From: Bacteroidota bacterium
GTDB taxonomy: Bacteria; Bacteroidota; Bacteroidia; Flavobacteriales; Flavobacteriaceae
Direction of reading: 5' to 3'
DNA: 64,000 bases
NCBI GenBank assembly: GCA_024279425.1
Contig: JAJRRO010000010.1
Location: 1-64,000 of the forward strand
The position numbers were made by a program, and so were the translations under genes. Under the pieces are notes generated by a model. It was not told where the DNA came from. It was given only the letters and a program-made list of their open reading frames with translations, and made no database searches. This document shows positions 301 to 24,459 of the stretch, piece after piece (positions within the stretch are counted from its first letter, which is position 1; every line of letters starts with the position of its first letter).

Positions 301-1173
301 TTAAGATTTAGTTATTTTGAATAAATTAGTAATTAAATATATTATTAAACCCCATATACCAAAAATCAATATATTTGGAAAAATAAGCAGAAATAATGGT
401 GTTTTATTTCTTGAAGACCACATTTTTCTTTGATCAAAAGTGGATTCATCCACTATTGGTGTTCCAATAGGAGCAATAAGCAAAGTTTTTACAGTCCCAT
501 AAATATCATGATCGTTTAGAACCACTTCAATATTTAAATTTCCATCAATACCAGGTATATTTGTATCTACAGAGACAAGGATTGTGCCATTTTCATCAGT
601 ATAATTAAATTCTTCTCCAATTTTATAAGGCATAAACAACCGTTGTACTTGCACATCCATTGATTCACCTATAATTAGACTGTCTGCGCCTACATCAATA
701 AGCATTGCTGATATATAATTTGTACTGTCTTTTACAACTAGTTCTGCTTTGATATCGGCATTTTTAAAACTTACACGCTTTGAGGCTCTCTTGAAAGATT
801 CGTTGCCATCAAAAGAAACTACAAAATTATAGGTGTGGGTAGAGTCAGGTGTAATTTCCTTTAATTTTGGTAGTACAAACTTACTTTCACCTTTCATATT
901 TGTAGTCAATGTACCCAATTCAATTTTTTCGTCAATAATCTCATTAAAAACGGTAAGTTTTAGATTAGGAACTTCTGTATTTTTCTTTTCAATTCTAGAA
1001 GTGGCTTTAATATCAAAATAAGCTTCCCCATCCATTATCTTAAAATAATATACCCTTATCCTTACGCTATTCTTTTCACCATCTTGGGCCAATAGATTTT
1101 GGGAACCCATGGTTAATAAAAAGATACCTAGGAATGCTAGAAAAACAAAGTGAACTTCAAATCTATTTTTCAT
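301..1173 (-). CDS. Hypothetical secreted protein with C-terminal membrane anchor, respiratory operon
   Basis: I do not recognise a named family. The 290-residue protein has an N-terminal signal segment ending near LLAQ (residues 27-30). A periplasmic region rich in beta strands follows, reading like one or two immunoglobulin-like domains (for example KLTVFNE and SFKRASKRVSF). A single C-terminal transmembrane helix spans about residues 260-283 and ends in a short basic tail. Its start overlaps the stop of the NrfD-type gene by 4 bp (ATGA), which indicates translational coupling. No metal or haem motif is visible. A role as an accessory or scaffolding subunit of the membrane complex is inferred only from its place in the operon. 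Confidence 0.7.
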   Translation of the reverse strand: MKNRFEVHFVFLAFLGIFLLTMGSQNLLAQDGEKNSVRIRVYYFKIMDGEAYFDIKATSRIEKKNTEVPNLKLTVFNEIIDEKIELGTLTTNMKGESKFVLPKLKEITPDSTHTYNFVVSFDGNESFKRASKRVSFKNADIKAELVVKDSTNYISAMLIDVGADSLIIGESMDVQVQRLFMPYKIGEEFNYTDENGTILVSVDTNIPGIDGNLNIEVVLNDHDIYGTVKTLLIAPIGTPIVDESTFDQRKMWSSRNKTPLFLLIFPNILIFGIWGLIIYLITNLFKITKS

Positions 1174-2486
1174 GATTCGACTATTTTAGAGGTTTTTGAT
1201 AATCCTTGTTCTTCAGCTGTCCGTTGAATCGGGATTACTGGCAAATATCTTACGAATAGCGTAATAATCAATAATGCCATGGCCAATGTAGCAACAGTAA
1301 TTAACCATTCATGCATACTTGGAAAGTAGTGGTGCCAAGATTCTGGAACACCTTCTATCGGCAAAAATGGATGTAATAATGTTGGCGTTACAATAATGAA
1401 TCGTTTCCACCATGAACCAATGACAACCATTAAACCTATAATAAACATAGCTCCTGGCTTTCTTCCTTTATTGAATAATAAAATCAATAGAGGTAGTAGT
1501 AGTCCAACAATTTGAGCAAACCAGAATAGAGGGGCGTATTCACCTGAAACTAATGAATCTAAATGAATATCTTCCTCAACCGGAGCGGTGAATATGGGAA
1601 TCAGATATTCGTTGATATTAAAGTATAGGTATGTTAAACAGGCCAAACCTAGGAATTTACCCATTTTATCAAAATGATAATCGGTAATATAATTCTCTAG
1701 TCTTCTTACTCTTCTTATCACATACATTAAAGTTACTAAAGCACCGATTCCTGCTACAAAAGCTCCAGATATAAAATAAGCTCCCATATTGGTACTATCC
1801 CACCCAATTCTATAAGTCGTTGAAAATAACCAGGCATCAATGGTTTGCAAAATGATACCCACAGGGATGATCAATATGGCTATAATTCTAATCGACTTTT
1901 CTTGAAGTGCTTTTTGTGCTTTACTGCCAGTCCAGTTTAAGGCCAATTTTCCGTACCATTTGCTAAATGTTGGTTTTGTTTTTTTGAAGTGTTTCTTAAG
2001 GATTGCCAGATCAGGTAGTAACGGAAAATATAGTAACAAGAAACTCAAAACAATAGAAGTTGGTACAATGATTACATCCCAGGTAATTGGCGATTGCAAT
2101 CTGGCATGAATGAATAGGTTTAAGAGCCTATCGGGCCTTGCCATGTCGATCATAATTGTTATACCTGCCATATCAATGGCGGCTAATGAAATAATTTCAG
2201 CAATACGTACCAATGGTGTTCTCCATGAATTATTTGTTAATCTTAAAACTGCAACGGTAACCGATCCTACAAAACTAATAGCTATGAAGAAAACGAAATT
2301 AGAAATGTAAATTCCCCAAAGGGCATAGTCTCGCATATTGGTTACAACTTGTCCTTTTATTATTTGATCTATATATGCAATAAGTCCTATAATAATGATT
2401 ATAATTAAAAAGGTAGTCCAAATGGTACCTCGCTTACCAAATTTTCTTGGGGCTAAATCATTGATCAGTTTGTTATAACTATCCAT
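1170..2486 (-). CDS. NrfD/PsrC-type membrane subunit (quinone-interacting)
   Basis: The 438-residue protein has about ten predicted transmembrane helices. It resembles the NrfD/PsrC/ActC family, integral membrane subunits that exchange electrons between quinones and a periplasmic Fe-S or cytochrome partner in polysulfide, tetrathionate and DMSO-type reductases and in alternative complex III. Family-like features include the N-terminal amphipathic segment before helix 1, the early helix-loop region reading DMARPDRL, and the long last helices near the C-terminus. It starts 2 bp after the Fe-S subunit ends, and its stop overlaps the next gene by 4 bp. No haem ligand pattern is evident. The direction of electron flow and the final substrate cannot be read from this subunit. 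Confidence 0.85.
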   Translation of the reverse strand: MDSYNKLINDLAPRKFGKRGTIWTTFLIIIIIIGLIAYIDQIIKGQVVTNMRDYALWGIYISNFVFFIAISFVGSVTVAVLRLTNNSWRTPLVRIAEIISLAAIDMAGITIMIDMARPDRLLNLFIHARLQSPITWDVIIVPTSIVLSFLLLYFPLLPDLAILKKHFKKTKPTFSKWYGKLALNWTGSKAQKALQEKSIRIIAILIIPVGIILQTIDAWLFSTTYRIGWDSTNMGAYFISGAFVAGIGALVTLMYVIRRVRRLENYITDYHFDKMGKFLGLACLTYLYFNINEYLIPIFTAPVEEDIHLDSLVSGEYAPLFWFAQIVGLLLPLLILLFNKGRKPGAMFIIGLMVVIGSWWKRFIIVTPTLLHPFLPIEGVPESWHHYFPSMHEWLITVATLAMALLIITLFVRYLPVIPIQRTAEEQGLSKTSKIVES

Positions 2487-2488
2487 AA

Positions 2489-3478
2489 TTATTCAGGTTT
2501 TTCAACTGATTCAAATTCCTTGTAATTTTCCAAACCATCTTCAAAATCAACTAATCTGTCAACTGGTGGTAAATAATATACACTAGGTGCTGTACCCAAT
2601 TCTTCCAATAATCTATACCCTGCCTTATCTTCTAATAATTGGCCCAATCGCAAGGTTTCCTCTCCATTTGTAACGGTATCCTCATATTTGTCCCCAAAAT
2701 AAAAAACGCCATTGGGGCAAGCAGTTACACAATGAGGGAGTTCATTATTTTGAATGGTATGTGGACAAAAATCACATTTGTCTACAGTACCTTTTAAACT
2801 TGGGCGACCCGCATACTCAGGAGAAGGCTTCATGGGCTCTTCAATGCCCATAACATGACCCATATTCAAGGTGATTTCCTGACCTGGTTCACTCCAATTA
2901 AAAACCCTTATAGAGTATGGACAAGCTGCCATGCAAAAACGGCAACCTATACAGCGTTCATTATCAATCAATACCAAACCATCCCTTCTCTTGAAGGTGG
3001 CGTCAACAGGGCAAACGGTTACACAGGCAGGTTGATCACAATGCATACAAGTTCTTGGCATCCAATAAGGAGCCGTATCCTTGGATTCCTGCATTTTGTG
3101 AACCTTTAGCCATGCATTTTCACCGGTTATGTAATGGTGTTTATTACAAGCACTTACACATTTTAATGCGTTTTTACATTTTGCCAGATCAATTACCATT
3201 ACGAACTTTCTGTTGGGCATGCCTTCCCTAACGTTGTATTTTACTTCGTGATCTTGGGAGTGTTCAACCTCTACTACTTCCGATGAATCTACTTTTATCA
3301 AGGTTCCATCGGTAGTCATTAATTCAATGGTTTCAGTGGATTCTTTTTTTGTATTTGCACTTAATTTCGAAGATAATTTGGCAAGTCCAATCCCACCTAT
3401 CGCAGAAACAAGACCTAATTTTAGTCCTTTGTCAAGAAATTTTCGTCTTGTCTTTTTGTTATTTTCTTCCATAATCAA
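2489..3478 (-). CDS. Tat-exported ferredoxin-like Fe-S electron-transfer subunit
   Basis: The 329-residue protein resembles the beta subunits of molybdopterin oxidoreductases (DmsB, NrfC, TtrB, PsrB). It begins with a Tat signal (TRRKFLDKG, then a hydrophobic stretch). Four cysteine clusters are visible: CKNALKCVSACN, CMHCDQPACVTVCP, CIGCRFCMAACP, and CDFCPHTIQNNELPHCVTACP, consistent with four iron-sulfur clusters. Between the Tat signal and the first cluster is an unusual segment reading TDGTLIKVD, also found in the small neighbouring Tat protein. It is encoded directly before the NrfD-type subunit, so the two should form an electron-transfer pair at the outer face of the inner membrane. 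No molybdopterin subunit lies inside the window. Confidence 0.9.
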   Translation of the reverse strand: MIMEENNKKTRRKFLDKGLKLGLVSAIGGIGLAKLSSKLSANTKKESTETIELMTTDGTLIKVDSSEVVEVEHSQDHEVKYNVREGMPNRKFVMVIDLAKCKNALKCVSACNKHHYITGENAWLKVHKMQESKDTAPYWMPRTCMHCDQPACVTVCPVDATFKRRDGLVLIDNERCIGCRFCMAACPYSIRVFNWSEPGQEITLNMGHVMGIEEPMKPSPEYAGRPSLKGTVDKCDFCPHTIQNNELPHCVTACPNGVFYFGDKYEDTVTNGEETLRLGQLLEDKAGYRLLEELGTAPSVYYLPPVDRLVDFEDGLENYKEFESVEKPE

Positions 3479-3494
3479 AATACATTAAATGAAA

Positions 3495-3764
3495 CTAGAT
3501 TTTTTTACCCAACCAGGTTAGGAACGAACTATTCGAAATATTTTCCTTTACGATATTTGATTTATTTAGAGCGCTCATTTTCACCTTGACAATTGTACCA
3601 TCCGGTTTTAACATCGTTTGGTATTCATCATCACTGTCAGAATTTTTAACTTCTTTTTTATCAGGTTTACCAAATCCTAAAAAAGGAATTAATAAGGATC
3701 CTCCTAAAATAGGTAGTATACCTCTTCTGGAAATTATTTTCTTTTTTTTGGAATTGTTGGCCAT
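3495..3764 (-). CDS. Small Tat-signal protein resembling the N-terminus of the Fe-S subunit
   Basis: The 89-residue protein starts with a lysine-rich stretch and a twin-arginine motif (ISRRGILPILGG), followed by a short hydrophobic core. After cleavage only about 50 residues would remain. The segment MLKPDGTIVKVKMSAL resembles LMTTDGTLIKVDSSEV in the Fe-S subunit encoded immediately downstream (16 bp gap). There is no cysteine and therefore no cofactor site. It could be a chaperone-like or assembly factor, or a duplicated head of the Fe-S subunit. The function is unknown. Confidence 0.7.
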   Translation of the reverse strand: MANNSKKKKIISRRGILPILGGSLLIPFLGFGKPDKKEVKNSDSDDEYQTMLKPDGTIVKVKMSALNKSNIVKENISNSSFLTWLGKKI

Positions 3765-3803
3765 GACGTAATTCTTAATTTAATATGTTGATTATACTAT
3801 AAT

Positions 3804-4673
3804 TTAAAAATTATAGTTTCTAGTAATATTAAATCCAATCAAAAAATCTGTGCCTCCTTTAAAGAAATCCTTTTGGTTGAACATATAATTCTCTTGCGGC
3901 ACTATACCATTATAGCTTGATAAGAACAATTGAAAAGCATGGGCAGAGGTGGAAAATTCAAACCCTATACTAAATCCAGGCTCCGGGTCATTCTCAAATT
4001 CAACATCATTCAAATGATGGATGAATGGGTGGCTATAATCTACCAATATCGAGGTCTGGTCACTAATTTTATAACGGCCACCCACGGCTAAGGCAACAAC
4101 ATCATTTGGCATTCTATCTTCCATTAAATTGTAATGTGAAATACTCGGAGCGACTTGTAGGGATAGTTTAGGACTAAACCTACGAGCAATTATCAATTGA
4201 TTGAAATAAGAATATCTAGCTTGTTTTGTTGGAAAACGATCTTTACCTTTTGCACGTGCATCAATTGTATAATTACCGTAGTACGAAATGCTTACAGGAA
4301 TTCTGTTTGAACGTGTTTGACTTAGGATACCAACTTTCCAATTAAAATCCTGATATGATTTTAATTTTGTAGTTCCATAACCTAGGGTCAATCTGTCGTG
4401 TATGGCATATGAAAGGCCAATACGAATATTTGCGGCGCCATAAATACCAGCTAAATCATTGGTCCCCCCATTAATCGTCCCAAACCTGTGCTGCATCATT
4501 ACTTCCAAGGTATTTTTATTGAAGAGTACGTTGGTGGGATTGTTAATTAGTGTTGTGCTTTCGAACGCAGGTCGTTCAGGCTTATCTTGAATCGAATCTT
4601 TTTTCGTTTCTTGTGAAACGACCAACACCGGTATCATTAAAAAAACAAAAAGTAATATTATATAATTTTTCAT
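3804..4673 (-). CDS. DUF5777 family outer-membrane beta-barrel protein
   Basis: The 289-residue protein has a signal peptide (cleavage near VVSQ, residue 20) and then repeating amphipathic strands ending in an aromatic C-terminus (ITRNYNF), as expected of an outer-membrane barrel. The sequence fits DUF5777, a Bacteroidota family often encoded beside c-type cytochromes and ethylbenzene-dehydrogenase-like haem proteins. Motifs include the N-terminal NPTNVLFNKNTLEVMMQHR and the strand region LTLGYGTTKLKSYQ. It lies 17 bp downstream of the cytochrome-like lipoprotein. The function is uncharacterised; a role at the outer membrane for the respiratory system is inferred from context. Confidence 0.8.
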   Translation of the reverse strand: MKNYIILLFVFLMIPVLVVSQETKKDSIQDKPERPAFESTTLINNPTNVLFNKNTLEVMMQHRFGTINGGTNDLAGIYGAANIRIGLSYAIHDRLTLGYGTTKLKSYQDFNWKVGILSQTRSNRIPVSISYYGNYTIDARAKGKDRFPTKQARYSYFNQLIIARRFSPKLSLQVAPSISHYNLMEDRMPNDVVALAVGGRYKISDQTSILVDYSHPFIHHLNDVEFENDPEPGFSIGFEFSTSAHAFQLFLSSYNGIVPQENYMFNQKDFFKGGTDFLIGFNITRNYNF

Positions 4674-4690
4674 GTCTATTTTATTGAAAG

Positions 4691-5080
4691 TTAATTATCT
4701 AAAGCTCCTTGCTCAATCCAGAGTTTGACTAAATTTATTTCTGAAGCTGGTAATTGTTCTGACTGAGGCATAGGACTAACTTCCCAGAGAAGGGTTTGAT
4801 ATAATAAACTAGCATTTAAATCCTCCGGAACTATATAGGTGCCATCAGTGATAGCGCTATATGAATTACCTACTGTTAAATCAGGTTCTGAGAAACTTGG
4901 ATGACATGAAGCACAACTTTCGGTAAAGATTGGCTGAATATCTGCTGCAAATGAAATTACTTCATCCACAGGGTCATCAGCAATGACTTCTTCTAAAATT
5001 TCATCATAATAACAACTAGATAAAGAAAGCATCAGAAGTACGACAGCTGCTTTACTTATTAAATTTAATATTTTTTTCAT
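4691..5080 (-). CDS. Small c-type cytochrome-like lipoprotein
   Basis: The 129-residue protein has a lipoprotein signal with the lipobox cysteine at residue 23 (SLSSC), then an acidic linker. A haem c motif CASCH lies at residues 56-60 within FAADIQPIFTESCASCH, the typical start of the single-haem domain found in many Bacteroidota lipoproteins. The C-terminal part (MPQSEQLPASEINLVKLWIEQGA) carries the methionine expected as distal ligand and the final helix of that domain. It lies between the first gene of the operon and the DUF5777 gene, and its transcription may be partly separated from the first gene by a terminator-like hairpin at 5101-5160. Confidence 0.85.
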   Translation of the reverse strand: MKKILNLISKAAVVLLMLSLSSCYYDEILEEVIADDPVDEVISFAADIQPIFTESCASCHPSFSEPDLTVGNSYSAITDGTYIVPEDLNASLLYQTLLWEVSPMPQSEQLPASEINLVKLWIEQGALDN

Positions 5081-5100
5081 AATTGTAAATTTAAAAGGTG

Positions 5101-5160
5101 AAAAAAGGCAATGACCAAAATCAAATTTTGATTATGAAAGTTAAAGTTCAGTCATTGCCT
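5101..5160 (-). terminator. Hairpin followed by T-run inside the respiratory operon
   Basis: On the minus-strand transcript a 10-bp perfect stem (AGGCAATGAC pairing with GTCATTGCCT, outer arms 5106-5115 and 5151-5160) encloses a second A/T-rich dyad, and six T follow. This is the form of a rho-independent terminator. It sits 16 bp after the stop of the first operon gene and 20 bp before the next start codon, so it may set a higher transcript level for the first gene than for the rest. Confidence 0.65.
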
Positions 5161-5175
5161 ATTTTAATCTAAATG

Positions 5176-6429
5176 TTATTCTTCAAATTTTAAAGTCAAA
5201 AATGCTTTTGTACCATGTGCTATTGCTGCATTGTTAAAAGTTGCGATTCCAAATGGAAAATCTTGAAGTGATGAAAAATCAACGTCTGCTCCTGTTATAT
5301 CTCCAGTAGAAAGTTTACGTTTAAATTCAAGTATCCAACTAGAACCAGTATATACCCCAATTGCAGTAATATCCCCTCTACTACCATTTGAAGGTCGTAC
5401 CCAAACACTTGGCATACCAAATTTACCTGAAGTTGCACCATCACGTTCGTAGCCTGCTTCGGTGTTGGGATCAATAGTACCACCGGCATAGGTAAGTATA
5501 CCTGTAGCGTCAACACCTGTTATTAGTTTAGCCTCGCCAGAATTGATTTCGTCAATAGTGATCCAGTTATAATATTCTCTACCTGGAATAAAATACAATG
5601 GTACACTTACATCAGCAGTTCCGTTATTTAAAGTTTGAGCGTTGTTGGTATACCCCCCCTGTCCATCATCACTATGTCTTCCATTTGGTTGTGTCTCATT
5701 TTGGTTTTGGTCATCAAATTGACCATAAAAGCTAGTTCTTGCCTGTTTCCAGTGCCACATATCAACTGTTTGACCGGCTGCTGCTGTAAAATGACGAGCA
5801 TAACCCTCCGGTTCAGTTAAACCAGTATGACAGGATGCAAAACAAGTTTGGGCAGACCAATTATCTGTACTATTGTCAACATCCCAAAGTATGGCATATT
5901 TATCTTCATAAAATGCATCCCTTATTTTTACACCATTTACGTCAAATAATGGCCAACGACTTTCTTGTGCCCAAAGGCTGGTTGCTGAATCAAAATACCA
6001 AGTGTCTCTAGTAGTCGATTTTTTTTCATCTTTCCATTCCGCTAAAAAGTAAATGTATTCATCGTCATAAAGTGCTCTTAAGGTAGATTCTTGAGTTTGA
6101 CCCACATATCCTTGAAAAACCTGTGTCCCATCATCTCCTAGGGGATCCAGTACTTCTGTAGGTGCTATTAGTATTTGTGCATCCGCCCAAGCGACATCTA
6201 TAACACCATCAATCAATGGACCGGTAAATACTTTTTTTGCCAATAAATCTGTTGTACTTGTGCCTGCACCTGTACTAACACCATCCTGACCGTCTTGACC
6301 ATCTTGACCGTCTTGACCATCTATACCATTAGCCCCTGGAGGTCCTGGAATAATATCACTGGTACATTGAATAAACATTACACTTGTTGCAATGATCATC
6401 AAGAAACTCATTAATTTTAAATTTTTCAT
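5176..6429 (-). CDS. Ethylbenzene-dehydrogenase-related haem lipoprotein with collagen-like spacer
   Basis: The 417-residue protein has a lipobox cysteine at residue 22 (FIQC), then a collagen-like stretch of Gly-X-Y triplets (GPPGANG and four GQD units, about residues 29-50). The rest fits the ethylbenzene dehydrogenase-like haem-binding fold (PF09459): LIDGVIDVAWADA, the strand YDDEYIYFLAEWKD, and a cysteine motif CFASCH near residue 196. Its spacing is CxxxCH, not canonical CxxCH. In this family such proteins act as haem-binding subunits of DMSO reductase-family enzymes or as stand-alone electron carriers. It is the first gene of the operon and follows the FNR-like promoter at 6479-6522. 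Whether both cysteines bind haem cannot be told from sequence. Confidence 0.85.
   Translation of the reverse strand: MKNLKLMSFLMIIATSVMFIQCTSDIIPGPPGANGIDGQDGQDGQDGQDGVSTGAGTSTTDLLAKKVFTGPLIDGVIDVAWADAQILIAPTEVLDPLGDDGTQVFQGYVGQTQESTLRALYDDEYIYFLAEWKDEKKSTTRDTWYFDSATSLWAQESRWPLFDVNGVKIRDAFYEDKYAILWDVDNSTDNWSAQTCFASCHTGLTEPEGYARHFTAAAGQTVDMWHWKQARTSFYGQFDDQNQNETQPNGRHSDDGQGGYTNNAQTLNNGTADVSVPLYFIPGREYYNWITIDEINSGEAKLITGVDATGILTYAGGTIDPNTEAGYERDGATSGKFGMPSVWVRPSNGSRGDITAIGVYTGSSWILEFKRKLSTGDITGADVDFSSLQDFPFGIATFNNAAIAHGTKAFLTLKFEE
6281..6325 (-). repeat. 9-bp tandem repeat encoding Gly-Gln-Asp collagen-like triplets
   Basis: Five consecutive 9-bp units (variants of CCATCTTGA and CCGTCTTGA on the plus strand) encode the collagen-like part of the lipoprotein spacer. 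Units two and four are identical. Such arrays often change copy number by slippage and would lengthen or shorten the surface spacer in frame. Confidence 0.8.
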
Positions 6430-6478: not shown

Positions 6479-6522
6479 TAAAATTATTAATGGATAGCTC
6501 CTTAAAATATGACATAAATCAT
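6479..6522 (-). promoter_or_regulatory. FNR-like promoter of the respiratory operon
   Basis: The dyad ATGACATAAATCAT (6509-6522) has the 5-4-5 layout of FNR boxes. Its centre (6515.5) is 33 bp from the centre of the minus-strand octamer TAATTTTA (6479-6486), which matches TAnnTTTG except for the last base. Transcription would start near 6475, about 46 nt before the start codon at 6429. The same dyad and spacing recur at four other places in the window. The regulator is not encoded here. Confidence 0.7.
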
Positions 6523-6591
6523 GTTTTTATTATTTTATTTTGCTGATTATCAGGACTTTAAAGTAATACGTGAAACCTTTTGCAACATTTT

Positions 6592-6609
6592 ATGTAACAA
6601 TTGTTACAT
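6592..6609. promoter_or_regulatory. 18-bp perfect palindrome ATGTAACAATTGTTACAT
   Basis: This perfect 18-bp dyad lies in the 321-bp space between ackA and the respiratory operon, 163-180 bp upstream of the first codon of the operon (6429) and about 85 bp upstream of the FNR-like dyad. The TGTAACA/TGTTACA half-sites look like an operator for a dimeric regulator, possibly a second CRP/FNR-family protein. The rest of this intergenic space is AT-rich and shows no gene. Confidence 0.55.
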
Positions 6610-6750
6610 TAATGACCGGCAAAATTGAATTTGATGACAAGCAATTATTTATAAAAAGGAAGAGAATAAGGTTAAAAAAAAGTTGCTTGTTTTAAATAGG
6701 TAATCTTATCTTCAAGTTTGAAAATATAATCTACTTAAATGAGATTGAAA

Positions 6751-7935
6751 TTAGTTAAGAAGTTGATAGGATTGCTTGGCGATTTCAAGCTCTTCATTCG
6801 TAGGTATTACCAAAATCTTGACTGGGGAAGTAGCTGTATTTATTTCGCGAATGCCTTTGAATTTTTGCTTGTTTTTAGCAACATCCAAGAACATCCCCAA
6901 AAATTGCATATCAGAACAGACCATCGCCCGAATTAGGTCAGAGTTCTCTCCAATACCTGCTGTAAACAATATAGCATCCAAACCATTCATTATAGCCGCA
7001 TAGGCGCCGATATATTTTTTAATGCGATACGCATTCATTTGCAATGCCAATTTACATGCTGTATTACCTTTTTCCGCCTCGCCTTCAATATCCCTTAAAT
7101 CGCTATAGCCTGTTAGGCCAAACATCCCACTTTCCTTAATTAACAAATTGTTGACCTCTTCTAAACTATAGCCCACTTCATTCACCAGATAAAAGATTAG
7201 GGAATGATCTATATCGCCACTTCGAGAACCCATAATCAATCCGTTCGACGGAGTAAAACCAAGGCTATGGTCCACACTTTTACCATTTTGGACTGCAGTT
7301 ATGCTACAGCCGTTCCCCAAATGGATCGAGATTATCTTGGCATCATCTATCTGTAAATATTCCATTGCCTTTTCAGAAACATATTTATGGCTGGTCCCAT
7401 GAAAACCATATGCCTGGATACCATGGTCTGACTGGAGGGCATTGGGAATCGCATATTTACGGGCCTTTACGGGCATAGTCTGATGGAAAGCCGTATCAAA
7501 AACAGCTATCTGCCTGGCATTGGGAAAAACCTGTTCTGCGATTTCGATGCCCTGAAGATTATGAGGATTATGCAAGGGTGCCAAATTACTGAATGTGTTT
7601 ATCTTGTCCTTAACCTTTGCGTCGATTAATGTGGTTTTCGAAAATGCATCACCTCCATGGACCACCCTATGACCCACGACATCAATTTCATCGGCATCTT
7701 TTATCACTCCTATTTCCGCATCGAGCAAATAATTGGCTATTTTTTCTAGACCTGCTCTATGGGAAAGTATTTCAATGGTCTCAGAAGTGTTCTTGCCTTC
7801 CACTCTATAACTTAAAATGGCATCCTTGGAACCAATACGTTCAACCAGACCAGAGACGATTACCTGAGCATTTGGCATTTCAATCAACTGAAACTTAATC
7901 GATGAGCTGCCCGAATTTAAAACCAAAACCTTCAT
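6751..7935 (-). CDS. ackA: Acetate kinase
   Basis: The protein converts acetyl phosphate plus ADP to acetate plus ATP (reversible), the substrate-level phosphorylation step of acetate fermentation, in the cytoplasm. The 394-residue length is normal. Signature features are present: the N-terminal VLNSGSSSIKFQL, the second signature VGHRVVHGG, the phosphate-binding region HLGNGCS, the GSRSGDIDHSL segment, and FTAGIGENS near the C-terminus. It starts 13 bp downstream of pta on the same strand, forming a pta-ackA operon read from the FNR-like promoter at 10080-10123. Confidence 0.97.
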   Translation of the reverse strand: MKVLVLNSGSSSIKFQLIEMPNAQVIVSGLVERIGSKDAILSYRVEGKNTSETIEILSHRAGLEKIANYLLDAEIGVIKDADEIDVVGHRVVHGGDAFSKTTLIDAKVKDKINTFSNLAPLHNPHNLQGIEIAEQVFPNARQIAVFDTAFHQTMPVKARKYAIPNALQSDHGIQAYGFHGTSHKYVSEKAMEYLQIDDAKIISIHLGNGCSITAVQNGKSVDHSLGFTPSNGLIMGSRSGDIDHSLIFYLVNEVGYSLEEVNNLLIKESGMFGLTGYSDLRDIEGEAEKGNTACKLALQMNAYRIKKYIGAYAAIMNGLDAILFTAGIGENSDLIRAMVCSDMQFLGMFLDVAKNKQKFKGIREINTATSPVKILVIPTNEELEIAKQSYQLLN

Positions 7936-7948
7936 GTACCTCCTTTGT

Positions 7949-10042
7949 TTAAAGATCCTGCGCCTGGATTGCTGTTATTATTACTGTGTTGAAAATATCC
8001 TCAACCGTGCAACCTCGGCTCAAATCATTTACTGGCTTGTTAAGACCCTGTAAAATAGGACCTATAGCAACAGCTCCTGTTTCACGTTGAACTGCCTTAT
8101 ATGTATTGTTTCCCGTATTCAGGTCAGGGAATATAAAGACCGATGCCTGCCCTGCAACCTTCGAGTTTGGTAACTTGGCCTTGGCAACATTAATATCTAC
8201 AGCCGCATCATATTGAATTGGGCCTTCCACTTTTTGATCAGGATACTTTTCTTTCAATATTTCGGTAGCGCTGCGCACACGGTCAACATCCTCACCTTTA
8301 CCAGAGGTGCCCGAAGAATAGGATAGCATGGCTATTTTCGGCTCAATATCAAAGGCCAAGCTTGTATTGGCTGAGGATATGGCAATTTCTGCCAATTGAT
8401 CAGCGGTAGGGTTTGGGTTTATAGCACAATCTCCAAAAACGGTGACACGATCTGGCAAACACATAAAAAATACAGAGGAAACCACCGATACGTCAGGTTT
8501 GGTCTTTATAAATTGTAATGCAGGCCTTATCGTATGTTGGGTAGTGTGAACAGCTCCAGATACCATACCATCAGCGTCACCTTTATATACCATCATGGTT
8601 GCAAAATAGGACACATCTTCCATAAGGTCCCTAGCCATAGCGAAGTTCACGTTTTTATGCTTCCTAAGTTCATATAAGGTATTGGTATAGTCTCCAAATC
8701 TTGGTGATCGTTTTGGGTTTTCAATGTTAATATCATTTATGTCCAAGTCAAGATCCAATTGCGATATTTTGTCTTCAATCTGTTTGTGGTCTCCCAAAAG
8801 GGTAACTCTTACAGCATTGGAATCGACAAGGAGTTTGGTTGCTCTTAGAATGCGTTCATCCAGCCCCTCGGCCAAAACAATATGCTTCACATCTGACTTT
8901 GCCCTTCTAATCAAATTGTACTGGAACATTCTGGGCGTAATTCCCTTAGCCTTAAAAGTTATTAGCCTTTCTGCCAATTCATCTTCGGGAACATATTTTT
9001 CGAAATCTTTGATAGAGACCGTTATCTTCTGCGTGTTTTCAGCATATATCCTTGGTTTTATACCTCCTATTTTATTGGTTATCGAAAATGTACCCTCCTT
9101 TACTGAAATAATTGGAACAACATCAGAAAGTCCGTCAATAAGCTTTATAATGGATTCTTCTGGAATAAGGTTACCCGTTAATATGATTCCTGAAATAGTT
9201 GGGTAATTGGCTGATAAGTTAGCCTGTAACGCCCCTAAAATAATATCGGCACGATCACCTGGGGTAATTACGAGTCCGTCTTTTTTTAAATGGGTAAGAT
9301 AGTTTCGAAGCTGCATGGCTCCCACACCAAAATGACCAGCCTGATTATTGAGATACTTTTCGCCAAAAAGAACCTTTCCTTTAAGCACTTCGACAATCTC
9401 CATAATAGACGGGTTTCCTAAAACTGGATTTAAAGGGATTGTACCAATGAGAATATTCATCGGCAGTTCTTTTTGAAGTCCCTTTTCAACTATAGAAACA
9501 TTTTCAGGCTGTACTTTGTTGGCAACGACCATAAGCACTTCTACACCCTTATCCTTGAAAGAATCATAGGCAAGGTAGATATTGTTAACCAACTCATCCA
9601 ACGTCTTGCCAACTCCACTAGCCAGAATAATGGTAGGTATCCCTAAATTCTTGGCCATTAATACATTAATATCCCATTCTATAATTGCCCCTTCACCAGA
9701 AAAATCGGTCCCCTCTACCAGAACAAAATCAAAGCGGTCTTCAATGGACTTATACTTTTCGATGATTTTGTCCAACACCACGTCCTCTTTATTTTGGTTG
9801 ATTTTATGGATGACTTCGCTCCTTGTAAAAGCAAAAGCCTCCTCATAATCCAATGCTAGACCAAAATAGGAGATTATGGTATTTATGTGATTGTCTTTCA
9901 CTCCCGGTGGGTAATCATCAATAATCGGCCTAAAATAGCCCACTTTGGCTGCCTTGCCCAATAACATATGCATAAGACCTAACGAAATAATTGATTTACC
10001 ACTATTGGGTTCAGTTGTGGCTATGTAAATGGCTTTGCTCAT
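7949..10042 (-). CDS. pta: Phosphate acetyltransferase, long form with BioD-like N-terminal domain
   Basis: The enzyme interconverts acetyl-CoA plus phosphate and acetyl phosphate plus CoA. At 697 residues it is the long three-domain form: an N-terminal P-loop BioD-like domain (IATTEPNSGKSIISLGL, about residues 5-200), a DRTGG domain (about 210-330, PGDRADIILGAL), and the catalytic PTA/PTB domain (about 370-690, with MLSYSSGTSGKGEDVDRV and the end region GAVAIGPILQGLNKPVNDLSRG). It is the first gene of the pta-ackA operon. Upstream, within 80 bp, is the FNR-like dyad with a perfect -7 octamer. Together with AckA it makes ATP from acetyl-CoA when oxygen is limiting. Confidence 0.97.
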   Translation of the reverse strand: MSKAIYIATTEPNSGKSIISLGLMHMLLGKAAKVGYFRPIIDDYPPGVKDNHINTIISYFGLALDYEEAFAFTRSEVIHKINQNKEDVVLDKIIEKYKSIEDRFDFVLVEGTDFSGEGAIIEWDINVLMAKNLGIPTIILASGVGKTLDELVNNIYLAYDSFKDKGVEVLMVVANKVQPENVSIVEKGLQKELPMNILIGTIPLNPVLGNPSIMEIVEVLKGKVLFGEKYLNNQAGHFGVGAMQLRNYLTHLKKDGLVITPGDRADIILGALQANLSANYPTISGIILTGNLIPEESIIKLIDGLSDVVPIISVKEGTFSITNKIGGIKPRIYAENTQKITVSIKDFEKYVPEDELAERLITFKAKGITPRMFQYNLIRRAKSDVKHIVLAEGLDERILRATKLLVDSNAVRVTLLGDHKQIEDKISQLDLDLDINDINIENPKRSPRFGDYTNTLYELRKHKNVNFAMARDLMEDVSYFATMMVYKGDADGMVSGAVHTTQHTIRPALQFIKTKPDVSVVSSVFFMCLPDRVTVFGDCAINPNPTADQLAEIAISSANTSLAFDIEPKIAMLSYSSGTSGKGEDVDRVRSATEILKEKYPDQKVEGPIQYDAAVDINVAKAKLPNSKVAGQASVFIFPDLNTGNNTYKAVQRETGAVAIGPILQGLNKPVNDLSRGCTVEDIFNTVIITAIQAQDL

Positions 10043-10079
10043 TGACAGTCTCGATTTTAAAATGCAAATTTAGATATTA

Positions 10080-10123
10080 CAAAATTAGTATCACCTTTAT
10101 CAAATAGATATGACTTTTATCAT
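10080..10123 (-). promoter_or_regulatory. FNR-like promoter of pta-ackA
   Basis: The dyad ATGACTTTTATCAT (10110-10123) is followed on the minus strand by a perfect -7 octamer TAATTTTG (plus-strand positions 10080-10087). The centre-to-centre distance is 33 bp, giving a start near 10076 and a leader of about 34 nt to the pta ATG. A second octamer, TAAATTTG (10065-10072), also matches but does not have the shared spacing. Confidence 0.75.
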
Positions 10124-10174
10124 TCTTAAAAACCAAACTTAGGTCATGTGTAATCAGAACCAATATTGTCTTTA

Positions 10175-10218
10175 ATGACCATTATCATGAAAAATCATAA
10201 CAATGAACACTATTTTTG
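10175..10218 (+). promoter_or_regulatory. FNR-like promoter of deoC-deoD
   Basis: The dyad ATGACCATTATCAT (10175-10188) lies 33 bp centre to centre from the perfect -7 octamer TATTTTTG (10211-10218). Transcription would start near 10222, about 42 nt before the deoC ATG chosen at 10264. This mirrors the divergent pta promoter, so the 221-bp space holds two back-to-back promoters of the same kind. Confidence 0.75.
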
Positions 10219-10263
10219 GGCTATATCCCTTATTTCCCAAGAACCATTAAACCATTGATCCAA

Positions 10264-10911
10264 ATGCGAATACAAGATTTTATAGACCATACCTTGCTCA
10301 AACCCGTTGCGACGATTGTCGATATTAAAAAACTATGCAAAGAAGGTATTGACCATGGTTTTTACGCAGTCTGTGTAAATGGCTGTTATACAAAACTGGC
10401 CAAGGAGCAATTAAAAGGGAGTAAGGTAAAGGTTGCCGCCGTTATCGGTTTCCCCTTGGGAGCTATGAGCACCGAGGCTAAAATTTTTGAAGCCTTAGAT
10501 TGCATTAAAAATGGAGCGGATGAAATCGATATGGTCATTAATATAGGTTGGCTAAAATCTGGAGAATTTGATTTGGTACAAAATGAGATTTCAAAAATCA
10601 AAAAAGCCATCGGTGATAAAATCCTTAAAGCTATTATTGAAACCTGTTATTTGACCAAAGACGAAAAGATACACGCATGTAAATTAGCGATTAACGCTGG
10701 GGCAGATTTTGTGAAAACTTCAACTGGTTTTGGCAACGGAGGTGCTACGCTGGAAGATATAAGGTTAATGAAGGATACTGTCGGCAACAAGGCCAAGATA
10801 AAAGCGTCAGGTGGAATAAAGGACAGGGCGACAGCACTAAAATATATTGCCTTGGGGGTTTCCAGAATTGGCACCTCCTCAGGTATAACCATTGTATCAG
10901 CTAACAAATAA
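10264..10911 (+). CDS. deoC: Deoxyribose-phosphate aldolase
   Basis: The enzyme cleaves 2-deoxyribose 5-phosphate to glyceraldehyde 3-phosphate and acetaldehyde. The 215-residue class I aldolase barrel shows the Schiff-base lysine in FVKTSTGF, the second lysine region [10 protein letters not shown], and [16 protein letters not shown] chose the ATG at 10264 ([14 protein letters not shown]) over an upstream in-frame start at 10216. The upstream start would put coding sequence on the predicted transcription start, and homologs begin close to the DHTLL motif. It is followed after 7 bp by deoD, making a deoxynucleoside salvage and catabolism operon. Confidence 0.95.
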
Positions 10912-10918
10912 AAAAACC

Positions 10919-11617
10919 ATGAGTGTTCATATTGAAGCCAAAAAAGGCGAAATAGCAGAGACCGTATTAATGCCAGGAGACCCCTTACGGGCCCAATGGA
11001 TTGCCGAAACATTTTTGGAAAATGTTTTTTGCTATAACAAGATCCGGGGGATGCTGGGGTATACAGGCGTCTATAAAGGGAAAAGAATATCAGTTCAGGG
11101 CAGTGGTATGGGCATACCCTCTGCCATGATTTATTATCATGAACTCATCAATGAATATGGTGTGAAAAACATTATTAGGGTCGGTTCGTCAGGTTCATAC
11201 CAAAAAGATATAAAACTACGTGATATTGTATTGGCCATGGCTGCCTCGACCACTTCGGGTATTAACAATAATAGGTTCGTGAATTCCGATTATTCGCCCA
11301 CTGCCAATTTTGATTTACTGCTTAATGCCACCCTTTACGCTAGGGACAAAGGCATAAAAATAAAAGCAGGCAATGTACTCTCTGCCGATGAATTTTATGA
11401 CGATAACCCAGAAGCTTATAAATTATGGGCAAAATACGGGGTTCTTTGTGTTGAGATGGAAGCGTCTGGCCTATATACCATTGCCGCTAAATACAATGTA
11501 AGGGCGTTGGCCATTTTAACCATTTCCGATTCTATGGTAACTGGTGAACAAATCTCTTCCTCCGAAAGGGAAACTTCCTTTAATGAAATGGTAGAGATAG
11601 CATTGAATATAACCTGA
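10919..11617 (+). CDS. deoD: Purine-nucleoside phosphorylase, DeoD type
   Basis: The enzyme phosphorolytically splits purine (deoxy)nucleosides to base and (deoxy)ribose 1-phosphate; after mutase action the deoxyribose 5-phosphate feeds DeoC. The 232-residue protein has the hexameric-class signatures: [13 protein letters not shown] (phosphate site), [29 protein letters not shown] (ribose and base site) and [11 protein letters not shown] with the catalytic Asp. The ATG at 10919 ([14 protein letters not shown]) matches the usual N-terminus; an earlier start at 10892 would overlap deoC. It is co-transcribed with deoC. Confidence 0.95.
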
Positions 11618-11662
11618 TTTAACAAGAACTATCCTAAAATCCCTAGCACCCCTTCCCAACAC

Positions 11663-11706
11663 ATGACATAAGTCATTTCATGATAAAGTATTAGTTGCCA
11701 ACTTTG
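11663..11706 (+). promoter_or_regulatory. FNR-like promoter after deoD, target uncertain
   Basis: The dyad ATGACATAAGTCAT (11663-11676, outer five bases perfectly symmetric) lies 33 bp from the plus-strand octamer CAACTTTG (11699-11706), which differs from TAnnTTTG only in the first base. A transcript would begin near 11710 and read through the MITE-like element at 11820-11978 before reaching the WG-repeat gene at 12062. No reading frame of meaningful size lies between. Confidence 0.55.
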
Positions 11707-11819
11707 ATTTGAACTAAAATGGTATTCAGGAATGGCGTTTTAATCTATATGCGATAGAAGGAAATATCTTTTTGGAAAATATACACGGACAGAAATAAAC
11801 CTAACTAATAATAGGTATA

Positions 11820-11978
11820 GAACTCGTTTAAACTTTTTGGATAATAGCGAAAATTAGGTCCTTAGTGCCCGATTGAAAACTTTTTTAAGTTGCATAGCAG
11901 GGCTACGGAAGGAAAAAAGACAAAAAGCGGGTGTAAAAGAGAAATTTTTTAGCCAATTGAAAAAGCTTAAACGAGTTC
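11820..11978 (+). mobile_element. MITE-like element A (159 bp)
   Basis: The ends are inverted repeats, GAACTCGTTTAAACTTTTT on the left and its complement with one mismatch on the right. ATA stands on both sides, a likely 3-bp target duplication. The interior has no reading frame and aligns with element B (35918-36076, also 159 bp). The orientation is arbitrary but the same as B. It sits in the 444-bp space between deoD and the WG-repeat gene. Confidence 0.8.
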
Positions 11979-12061
11979 ATAGTATATCCAAAGAATTAAA
12001 AGGCATTATCTATTCATGTACCATGTTTATAAACTGATTGAATAACAAAAAATATAAAGAC

Positions 12062-12703
12062 ATGAAAAATATTCTAGCAACTCTGACTTTGTTGTTTGTC
12101 GTACCGATTACATCGAGTTCGCAAACTACGATTAACAGCTATGATGAAATAGCCCCTTTTAGCGAAGGGTTAGCAGCGGTTCGCCGAGGAAACCTATGGG
12201 GTTTTATTGATGAAGAAGCTAAACTAATCATTGATTTTAGAGATGATCTAGTATGGAATAAGGCTGCCGATATAACAGTACTGGGTGTGTTGGGTATTCG
12301 ATATCCCCAATTTAAAAATGGCCGGTGTCTAATCAAAGAATTGAAAGGGGACGATATACCTTATTACGGTTTTATTGATAAAACCGGTGCTTTGGTCATA
12401 AAGCCGGAATACTTGAATATCACCCGTTTTGACCAAAAATATGCCATTGGCATATTTGTCAGGGAAGCCTTCCAAGGAAAGAATGAAATAAATTTAAATA
12501 TTATAGACTACATATTTACAGAGGTGGTAGTAAATACCAATGGCGAAATCATGTGGCCCATAACCCAACGGGAACACATCCTTACTTCTAAGAGACGATA
12601 TGAAATTCCCGAGTTAAGGGCAAAACTCATCGCAAAAGACCTGCTTGCGGTTAAAACCAAAGCGAACACGTGGGAAACTAAAAAACTGAATCTAAAACTC
12701 TAG
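12062..12703 (+). CDS. Secreted WG-repeat protein
   Basis: The 213-residue protein has a signal peptide (MKNILATLTLLFVVPITSSS) and then two WG-type repeats: DEIAPFSEGLAAVRRGNLWGFIDEE (residues about 25-50) and a more diverged copy around YYGFIDKTGALVIKPEY (about 108-125). WG repeats are beta-hairpin units common in Bacteroidota; their function is generally unknown. The ATG at 12062 was chosen because it starts a good signal peptide; a TTG at 12038 would add eight non-hydrophobic residues. The gene is closed by the hairpin at 12819-12850. It may be read from the FNR-like promoter 350 bp upstream, through an inserted MITE. Confidence 0.75.
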   Translation: MKNILATLTLLFVVPITSSSQTTINSYDEIAPFSEGLAAVRRGNLWGFIDEEAKLIIDFRDDLVWNKAADITVLGVLGIRYPQFKNGRCLIKELKGDDIPYYGFIDKTGALVIKPEYLNITRFDQKYAIGIFVREAFQGKNEINLNIIDYIFTEVVVNTNGEIMWPITQREHILTSKRRYEIPELRAKLIAKDLLAVKTKANTWETKKLNLKL

Positions 12704-12818
12704 TTAAAATAACATTAGCTCAAATCTTCACTAAAATCATATGGATTTTACATAACTTAATTGTCAAATTCAGGTTTCAGACTTTTTATTAGCACTATCT
12801 CATAAAGTGTGTAAGTAG

Positions 12819-12850
12819 AAAAATAGCGGGGGCATGCCCCCGCTATTTTT
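12819..12850. terminator. Bidirectional terminator, 32-bp perfect dyad
   Basis: A fully symmetric sequence centred on GCATGC (12834/12835) has a GC-rich core flanked by A5 on the left and T5 on the right. It lies between the convergent WG-repeat gene and the slipin gene, so it can end both transcripts. Confidence 0.9.
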
Positions 12851-12874
12851 GGTTACCATTTAATTCTTCAATTA

Positions 12875-13624
12875 TTATAACTTAAGCTTTCGACTTTTTG
12901 TTTTGTGTAAAACTTCTTCAGGAAATGGAAAAATAATGGTCGAATTTTTCTCGGCTGCTATGTTGGACAATGTTTGATATAATCTCAATTTTATCGCCGA
13001 AGGGGATTGATCTATAAGTTTCCCTGCCTCAAGTAATTTTCCGGCTGCCTGTTCCTCGGCCAAAGCTAAGATTACCCTTGCTCTCCTGGAACGTTCTGCT
13101 TCCGCCTGATTGGCCATCATTCTCCTCATATTTTCGGGCAATTGAATATCTTTTATTTTCACATCCATAATTTCAATGCCCCATTCATGGGTTTCTTGTT
13201 CCACAATTCTCTTTATATTCTTACCCATTTCCTCTCGTTTAGACAAAATGGTATCCAATTCCACTTTACCACAAACATCTCTTAAAGCCGCCTGTGAAAG
13301 TTGGGTTATGGCGAAAGTGAATTCCTCAACTTCCAATACGGCCTTTTCAGGATCTGTAATCTTAAAAAAGACCACACCATCTATACTACAAGGCACGTTA
13401 TCCTTAGTCATTACTTCTTGAGATATTACATTGATCGTGATTATCCTTATATCAACAATTTGAATAGTTTCTACAATGGGGATAATCCATCTGAAACCCG
13501 GTTGTAACGTTTTAATATACTTTCCAAAACGGAACTTTAGGGCTCTTTTATACTCAAAAACAATTCGAATTCCGGCCAATGCCAAAACTCCAATGATTAC
13601 AACGAATAAAGCTAATGGGTTCAT
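12875..13624 (-). CDS. Slipin (SPFH/Band 7 family membrane protein)
   Basis: The 249-residue protein has one N-terminal transmembrane helix (residues 3-22), then an SPFH/Band 7 domain: EYKRALKFRFGKY, the proline-rich turn LQPGFRWIIPIVE, and VMTKDNVPCSIDGVVFFKI. A helical C-terminal part follows with EAERSRRARVILALAEEQAAGKLLEA. It fits prokaryotic stomatin-like slipins, which form oligomers on membrane patches. The usual NfeD partner is not adjacent. It is a single gene with a bidirectional terminator downstream. Confidence 0.88.
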   Translation of the reverse strand: MNPLALFVVIIGVLALAGIRIVFEYKRALKFRFGKYIKTLQPGFRWIIPIVETIQIVDIRIITINVISQEVMTKDNVPCSIDGVVFFKITDPEKAVLEVEEFTFAITQLSQAALRDVCGKVELDTILSKREEMGKNIKRIVEQETHEWGIEIMDVKIKDIQLPENMRRMMANQAEAERSRRARVILALAEEQAAGKLLEAGKLIDQSPSAIKLRLYQTLSNIAAEKNSTIIFPFPEEVLHKTKSRKLKL

Positions 13625-14039
13625 AATAATTTATTTATGATTTATGTACATTTTTTAATCATGAAGCATCGATTAATCTATGTACTTTTATGGGTATGTC
13701 CTAAGACTTTAAAAAACCACCGTAAAAAGAGTTGAATCTCCTTCTAGCTCATCTTATCATACCCTTTTAATTTACGAAAATTATTCCTTATTACAAAGAG
13801 AAACAAAGCTTAAAACAACGCACAAGCAATTAAATATCAGTATTTTAATCCGACCCTGTCACCTTGGTCATTCCATAATTCTATGGAACAAGTCGGTAGA
13901 ATGAAGTTTTACCCACCCCAAACAACTAAACCAATTGATAATCTTCCCTATCTTTTACAAAAGAATCTTTGCTTTTTGTGAACATATGTCAATATATTAA
14001 AAAACACTCTAAATTTCATAAGATTAGTTGTTCATTCCT
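13625..14039. other. Non-coding stretch between slipin and the HMA-fold gene
   Basis: About 415 bp without a supported gene. It must hold the promoter of the slipin gene (minus strand). I see no repeats, no structured RNA that I recognise and no open frame of useful length. The regulatory dyad of the next gene begins at 14040. Confidence 0.6.
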
Positions 14040-14083
14040 ATGACTAAGATCATGCTATACTTTGGTGTCTTTGAATAGTTTTG
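14040..14083 (+). promoter_or_regulatory. FNR-like promoter of the HMA-fold gene
   Basis: The dyad ATGACTAAGATCAT (14040-14053) is 33 bp, centre to centre, from the perfect -7 octamer TAGTTTTG (14076-14083). The predicted transcription start is near 14087, so the mRNA would have almost no leader before the ATG at 14092. Confidence 0.7.
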
Positions 14084-14091
14084 TTGTGACC

Positions 14092-14331
14092 ATGAAAACT
14101 ACTTTTGAAATACAGAACACCGGTTTAAGTATGGATGAGAAAGTCATTATAGAAAGGTTATTCACTTTAAAGAATATATGGGGTGTTCTTGTGGACACTA
14201 ATAATCGTTCAATTACCTTTGAATATCCCAATAGCACTGACCGTGATATGGTACAAAGAGAGTTGCATCATATGGGTTTTACCTTAATCAATGATACCCA
14301 CACCATGGATAGTTATAAAAACCTTCATTAA
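14092..14331 (+). CDS. Small HMA-fold-like protein without metal-binding cysteines
   Basis: The 79-residue protein has the beta-alpha-beta-beta-alpha-beta pattern of heavy-metal-associated domains: TTFEIQN, helix DEKVIIERLFTL, KNIWGVLVDTNNRSITFEY, helix DRDMVQRELHHMG, FTLIND. It contains no cysteine, so the CxxC metal site of true copper chaperones is absent. The start at 14092 was chosen because it begins the first strand; the frame is also open upstream to 14062. It stands alone, with an FNR-like promoter. It may act as a cytoplasmic adaptor or regulator; no function is established for it. Confidence 0.65.
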   Translation: MKTTFEIQNTGLSMDEKVIIERLFTLKNIWGVLVDTNNRSITFEYPNSTDRDMVQRELHHMGFTLINDTHTMDSYKNLH

Positions 14332-24445: not shown

Positions 24446-24459
24446 ATGATTTTAATCAT
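24446..24459 (+). promoter_or_regulatory. FNR-like dyad without a good -7 element at the shared spacing
   Basis: ATGATTTTAATCAT is a 14-bp dyad of the ATGAY-N4-RTCAT type in the 246-bp space before the CarboxypepD_reg gene. At the shared spacing the sequence reads AATTTTTA, a poor match to TAnnTTTG. It is therefore a weak candidate compared with the other five. Confidence 0.3.

Follow-up and report, generated by a model that had tools for sequence, protein, structure and literature searches.

The window analysed here, 64,000 bp of one contig (C13:1-64000) of a flavobacterial genome assembly of 5.27 Mb in 140 contigs, carries repeated copies of the palindrome ATGAY-N4-RTCAT, hereafter called the dyad, most of which are accompanied at a constant distance by an octamer of the type TAnnTTTG. 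The question raised by this locus is whether these pairs are promoters switched by a regulator of the CRP/FNR family or a coincidence in a motif that had been picked by reading. The first-pass annotation had proposed a low-oxygen regulon of the FNR type on the basis of five dyads with octamers, all of which are present at the positions it gave, the match to TAnnTTTG being perfect in three octamers and carrying one mismatch in two. We regard it as quite likely that the dyads are sites of a CRP/FNR dimer for class II activation at sigma-A promoters and that their main regulator, responding to low oxygen, is an FNR-like protein encoded at C57:52858-53556. The dyads and boxes are as follows:

6509-6522, no strand: dyad ATGACATAAATCAT of the respiratory operon promoter, 14 bp, centre predicted at -41.5
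6479-6486, minus strand: -7 box TAATTTTA of the respiratory operon promoter, one mismatch
10110-10123, no strand: dyad of the leftward pta promoter
10080-10087, minus strand: -7 box TAATTTTG of the pta promoter, perfect
10175-10188, no strand: dyad of the rightward deoC promoter
10211-10218, plus strand: -7 box TATTTTTG of the deoC promoter, perfect
11663-11706, plus strand: dyad with the weak box CAACTTTG (box at 11699-11706, one mismatch)
14040-14083, plus strand: dyad with the box TAGTTTTG (box at 14076-14083, perfect), upstream of a 79-aa protein

Six matches to the dyad were found in the window against 0.42 expected, and none of 100 shuffles reached this number. For five of the six the octamer stands at exactly 33 bp, measured from centre to centre. 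The sixth dyad (24446-24459), which was absent from the first-pass annotation, has two mismatches in its best octamer at this spacing.

Over the whole genome, 73 dyads were counted versus 17 matches to the reversed pattern. The combined pattern TGAY-N4-RTCA-N(8-38)-TAnnTTTG gave 41 matches versus 7 for its reversal, and 19 of the 41 showed a gap of exactly N=23, corresponding to the 33 bp between centres, while the other 30 gaps held 0.73 matches on average and three at most. With up to two mismatches allowed at the N=23 spacing, 89 matches (a dyad with boxes on both sides being counted twice) were obtained versus 18 for the reversed pattern; 34 of them had no more than one mismatch. As the first-pass annotation had suggested asking whether the pattern is equally common within coding sequence, the location of the sites was determined with a simple open reading frame (ORF) caller for 30 of the 41 matches (16 of the 19 at N=23 and 14 of the 22 at other gaps): none of the 16 right-spaced sites lay inside a gene, compared to nine of the 14 others. 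One of these nine (L030) is really the upstream region of fnr beneath an over-long ORF start, and the hemN site, which one scan had marked as inside, likewise overlaps an over-long ORF start. Furthermore, a same-strand gene lies downstream of all 16 N=23 sites examined and of all 30 inspected among the 34 that have no more than one mismatch (left out were C85:23768, C94:45446, C102:77972 and C124:45721).

The same preference is found in the relatives. Of the matches in nine genomes of the order, 150 were listed; the gap is 23 in 47 of these, compared with a mean of 3.4 and a maximum of 8 for the other 30 gaps, and a sample of 295 genomes of the class contains 992 sites of the exact pattern, distributed over 236 genomes, versus 25 of the reversed one. 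These independent genome-wide and class-wide counts with their controls refute a coincidence arising from reading, to which we assign practically no probability, and they corroborate the earlier estimate that five equal spacings would rarely occur by chance. We take the repeated palindromes to be genuine promoter switches that keep a constant distance from the start of transcription. The distance of exactly 33 bp holds for the five window pairs and is the norm of the genome, but it is not absolute, as 32 and 34 bp also occur at the deoC promoter of genus relatives.

FNR and CRP of Escherichia coli have their class II position at -41.5. Start sites mapped in Flavobacterium psychrophilum (PMC9723704) locate the sigma-A box TAnnTTTG at -12 to -5, so that the spacing of 33 bp puts the dyad centre at -41.5. 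By analogy with this map from another flavobacterium, the dyads would occupy the class II position of sigma-70-family promoters, in agreement with the value near -41 that had been assumed for the window. The linker is T-rich immediately 3' of the dyad, roughly where a -33 element would be. In the same study, cbb3 and haem genes were up under oxygen limitation (PMC9723704).

With respect to the half-site, the description as a 5-4-5 box of the FNR type with A in place of the first T was borne out. The 19 own sites comprise 38 half-sites, in which base 1 is A 26 times, C seven times, G four times and T once; this rules out the FNR consensus TTGAT as the half-site in this genome. For the 47 sites of the relatives, the right half ends with T (equivalent to A at base 1) in 29 cases, followed by A (8), G (6) and C (4).

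The targets, i.e. the genes of this genome with a site at the standard spacing and up to two mismatches, include the following outside the window:

C57:56056: ccoNO, cbb3 oxidase, near the fnr-like gene
C57:53606: copper ATPase, near the fnr-like gene
C57:52727: universal stress protein (usp) gene, near the fnr-like gene
C57:80969: cytochrome c-nosZ cluster
C57:80999: Rrf2 regulator, on the other side of the nosZ-cluster dyad
C85:23768: cytochrome c gene, norB-like gene and nirK
C57:86207: hemN
C57:70703: moeA
C124:45691: 2-oxoacid:ferredoxin oxidoreductase
C32:172116: pyruvate phosphate dikinase
C21:12268: doubled-CXXCH protein
C56:79262: S30AE ribosome-hibernation protein
C56:87387: usp
C51:55745: GH3 glycosidase
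C82:11335: PqqD-like protein
C85:18285: FadL-like porin, which fits the low-oxygen set less simply

The norB-like gene was named from its position after the cytochrome c gene and a COX1 match, NCBIfam giving no name. Listed gene by gene, the targets contain low-oxygen genes (cbb3, nosZ, nirK, hemN, pta and others) as well as other ones. The location upstream of genes, the targets cbb3, nosZ, nirK, hemN, moeA and pta, and an fnr-like gene adjoining cbb3 support the proposed low-oxygen class II regulon of the CRP/FNR type. At three dyads a box was found at the standard gap on each side: between the nos cluster and the Rrf2 regulator (C57:80969-81042), at the ferredoxin oxidoreductase (C124:45691-45764) and between the GH3 glycosidase and a CBS protein (C51:55745-55818). 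A single dimer may therefore serve two divergent promoters.

Crp-type helix-turn-helix domains were detected at eight loci of the genome, one of which is below the cut-off and GntR-like by eye. The best candidate for the regulator is the FNR-like protein of 233 aa at C57:52858-53556, whose nearest named relatives belong to Maribacter and whose gene is oriented divergently to those of the copper ATPase and cbb3; in alphaproteobacteria, fnr is often located near cbb3 genes (PMC2908626). TGAY-N4-RTCA occurs within 250 bp upstream of 71 of 80 orthologous genes from Flavobacteriaceae (the best 80 of 263), compared to 117 of 1798 control windows, and in 57 of the 80 a perfect TAnnTTTG follows on the strand of the gene, the gap being exactly 23. 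C9, C12, C58 and C111 as well as E196, I199 and R200 are invariant in all 80 orthologues and in 29 of 29 class-level proteins (109 sampled); the latter are among the best-scoring (top 30, our own included) of the 172 genomes with a match, and since both sets are best-scoring subsets the invariance is partly due to selection. Alignment to the FNR structure 5cvr pairs C9, C12 and C111 with cysteines of FNR, which together with the cysteine at the position of Asn18 are presumably its cluster ligands, and places C58 opposite Ala. A further cysteine at position 21 is found in 21 of the 29 class-level sequences and is absent from the six of the own family. E196 and R200 are the residues named Glu209 and Arg213 in PMC2908626. 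The recognition helix reads E..IR in all 109 sampled proteins and not E..SR as in FNR, with Ile199 replacing Ser212. The AlphaFold model of one orthologue (L102) is of low quality, with a predicted local distance difference test score of 72 and a predicted template modelling score of 0.47.

Several observations weigh against the FNR-like protein as the low-oxygen regulator of these sites, and we consider them here together with the alternatives. Binding and the response to oxygen are predictions from sequence. The protein is not FNR proper: Fnr is its best named NCBIfam family, with 103 bits versus a cut-off of 228 (orthologue L102), Asn18 stands in place of the third N-terminal cysteine, so that two N-terminal cluster cysteines and the distal one are present, and the helix differs from E..SR. 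The box of its own gene in this genome stands at gap 9, not 23. An oxygen link is not obvious for the GH3 glycosidase and the PqqD-like protein, and six of the scanned first genes behind sites have no Pfam match. The pta site was found at only one of 17 other pta loci, a low conservation for which gene order would account only in part. Genomes of the class sample with a strong FNR match (E value up to 1e-40) have 5.0 sites on average, those with a weak match 3.4 and those with none 1.8 (n = 106, 65 and 123, own genome left out), a correlation in favour of the protein, though one uncontrolled for genome size and base composition. Finally, five site-rich genomes without an FNR match (E value 1e-30) all carry a receiver-CRP fusion with the E..IR helix, and genome G192 has no sites despite such a fusion.

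In the own genome this fusion is a protein of 350 aa on C56 with the helix TETLIR, its receiver domain, like that of the other fusions, being established by Pfam. It adjoins genes for a PAS histidine kinase, usp, S30AE, DnaJ and thioredoxin-like proteins, some of them named by eye, and several right-spaced sites lie in this island (C56:78000-92000, L069), which looks like an anaerobic dormancy cluster. The fusion could form a two-component system with the neighbouring PAS histidine kinase and be the main regulator in place of the FNR-like protein, or both could share the sites. The common E..IR pattern, the sites in its own cluster and its presence in all five site-rich genomes examined, compared to only two of ten zero-site genomes (one with E..SR, the other being G192), speak for such a role; we nevertheless judge it quite improbable, as most orthologues of the fnr-like gene carry a site, cbb3 and denitrification genes with sites are classic FNR/DNR targets, and the site count climbs with the FNR match. 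Some sharing of sites between the two proteins may occur. It is likewise unlikely, in our view, that the FNR-like protein controls the sites while sensing nitric oxide, haem or the redox state instead of oxygen via an iron-sulfur cluster. Denitrification genes are indeed among the targets, the usual third cluster cysteine is replaced, and HcpR and PgRsp, CRP/FNR proteins of other Bacteroidota, bind haem (PMC12040651, PMC6955866); on the other hand, many targets belong to respiration or fermentation without nitrogen oxides, and four cysteines, three of them matching those of FNR, are invariant in the 109 sampled proteins.

For comparison, FNR of gamma-proteobacteria and FnrL/FixK of alphaproteobacteria resemble the present system in the class II position, the TGA(Y) half-site core, the Glu and Arg of the recognition helix, the N-terminal CxxC and the distal Cys. 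They also share cbb3, hemN and fnr itself as targets and the position of fnr next to cbb3 genes (PMC2908626). The differences are the A at the beginning of the half-site instead of T, Ile for Ser212, Asn for the third N-terminal Cys, the additional invariant Cys58 and the Bacteroidetes -7 box. With DNR/NnrR the system shares targets, namely the reductase genes for nitrite, nitric oxide and nitrous oxide. It differs in the motif, which for DNR is published as similar to TTGATnnnnATCAA (PMC1274295), and in its target set, which is far wider than nir-nor-nos; a regulon confined to nitrogen-oxide genes was rejected in view of the sites at pta, deoC, hemN, usp and cbb3. HcpR2 of Bacteroides and others is a CRP/FNR protein of Bacteroidota with a 5-4-5 dyad as well (PMC1274295). 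Its printed motif GTAACnnnnGTTAC differs, in a comparison in which the TGAY/RTCA core was fixed by our search pattern and hcp and GTAAC sites lay outside the scan. PgRsp of P. gingivalis was set aside as an orthologue by description, on account of the position near CooA that its authors give it (PMC6955866). A Flavobacteriales CRP/FNR regulon predicted with a Bacteroides matrix was assigned to MalR-like carbon sensing (PMC8510549), in contrast to the low-oxygen response proposed here; this comparison is by description and leaves aside whether the protein is the same. Oxygen-regulating Crp/Fnr proteins are mentioned for Maribacter genomes (PMC10942906). Another CRP/FNR type with the helix AREVISR stands directly 5' of a GTGAC-like dyad with the box at the same gap, both in our genome (C102:26106-26289), where this dyad precedes a YgaP-like membrane gene, and in G329 (G329:C34:75680-75908), and other members of the family may use the same spacing. 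What has been found is a widespread class II regulon that is FNR-like in targets and position, with a changed half-site and cysteine set; its regulator is probably FNR-like too.

As far as can be read from the genomes, an FNR-like low-oxygen sensor very probably acts via the dyads on genes of respiration, denitrification and fermentation, both in this marine flavobacterium and in many relatives. Under low oxygen, the FNR-like protein would hold an iron-sulfur cluster and dimerise; attached to ATGAY-N4-RTCAT at the class II position, the dimer would bring RNA polymerase to its targets. It would thereby switch on the genes of high-affinity respiration, of denitrification and of the anaerobic synthesis of haem and molybdopterin, as well as those of acetate fermentation, of nucleoside salvage and of the universal stress proteins; its own gene would be a target too in most of the relatives sampled. 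A further-reaching view, which we hold to be possible but tentative, is that an undescribed branch of FNR is the oxygen switch in much of the Bacteroidia, that C58 of the beta-roll replaces the third N-terminal ligand, that ATGAY is read because of the exchange of Ser212 for Ile, and that these sites are also read by the receiver-CRP paralogue, whose helix is the same. Genome G329 is a contrary case to Ile at the Ser212 position setting base 1 to A, since five of the seven sites listed for it end with TCAA despite the same helix pattern.

The genes behind the window sites are:

301-6429, minus strand: putative respiratory operon of the 6509 promoter
5176-6429, minus strand: EB_dh haem protein, in the putative respiratory operon
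4691-5080, minus strand: CXXCH lipoprotein without Pfam match, in the putative respiratory operon
2489-3478, minus strand: 4Fe-4S protein, in the putative respiratory operon
1170-2486, minus strand: NrfD, in the putative respiratory operon
7949-10042, minus strand: pta, behind the leftward promoter
6751-7935, minus strand: ackA, behind the leftward promoter together with pta (6751-10042)
10264-10911, plus strand: deoC, behind the rightward promoter
10922-11617, plus strand: deoD-type phosphorylase, behind the rightward promoter together with deoC (10264-11617)
14092-14331, plus strand: 79-aa protein without Pfam match

Three further proteins are encoded within the putative respiratory operon, which may be cut, as the contig begins at base 1 of the window. 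A gene 500 bp behind a dyad at C46:1512-2427 resembles, by eye, the CXXCH lipoprotein, and C46 may hold a second copy of this operon. The 79-aa protein had been taken for an HMA-fold protein; Pfam finds no HMA domain in it, even at an E value of 0.5.

When the deoC promoters of 12 genus genomes, ours among them, are aligned, the dyad and TATYTTTG stand out as the conserved blocks. Eleven of the 12 possess the dyad, with the box at the standard gap in seven, one base further in three and one base nearer in one; the leftward (pta) dyad with its box (five or six of six letters) stands at the standard gap in 11 of the 12 as well. Outside the genus both sites were mostly not found. The starts of pta and deoC are about 2.06 kb apart in six of the nine genus genomes that have both on one contig, compared to 222 bp in our genome and the relative closest to it; another genus genome has 330 bp. 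At the loci inspected (three pta and one deoC locus, one of them Pfam-checked) genes of the universal stress type lie between the leftward promoter and pta-ackA. From the longer distance and the usp genes in the relatives, it seems that two usp genes were lost at 10042-10264 of the window, placing pta-ackA directly under an old promoter that probably served universal stress genes before. A DUF2267 gene is intact behind the 11663 site in a relative (L236) and present only as scraps in our genome (11663-12030), where this site is probably an orphan promoter.

Flavobacteria are major heterotrophs of marine and soil habitats, and some reduce N2O. In the titles and abstracts listed by searches of open-licence PubMed Central, a scope without subscription papers and RegPrecise, no FNR binding motif or regulon was found for them. 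With the dyad and TAnnTTTG at one spacing, genomes can be scanned by a precise rule, from which low-oxygen promoters are predicted in many species. The position suggests that the unusual sigma factor of the Bacteroidetes supports class II activation at -41.5, and the regulon points to a change in the cluster ligands and in the reading of the half-site that can be tested. If the further-reaching view holds true, one promoter grammar would take input both from a sensor that detects oxygen directly and from a two-component system.

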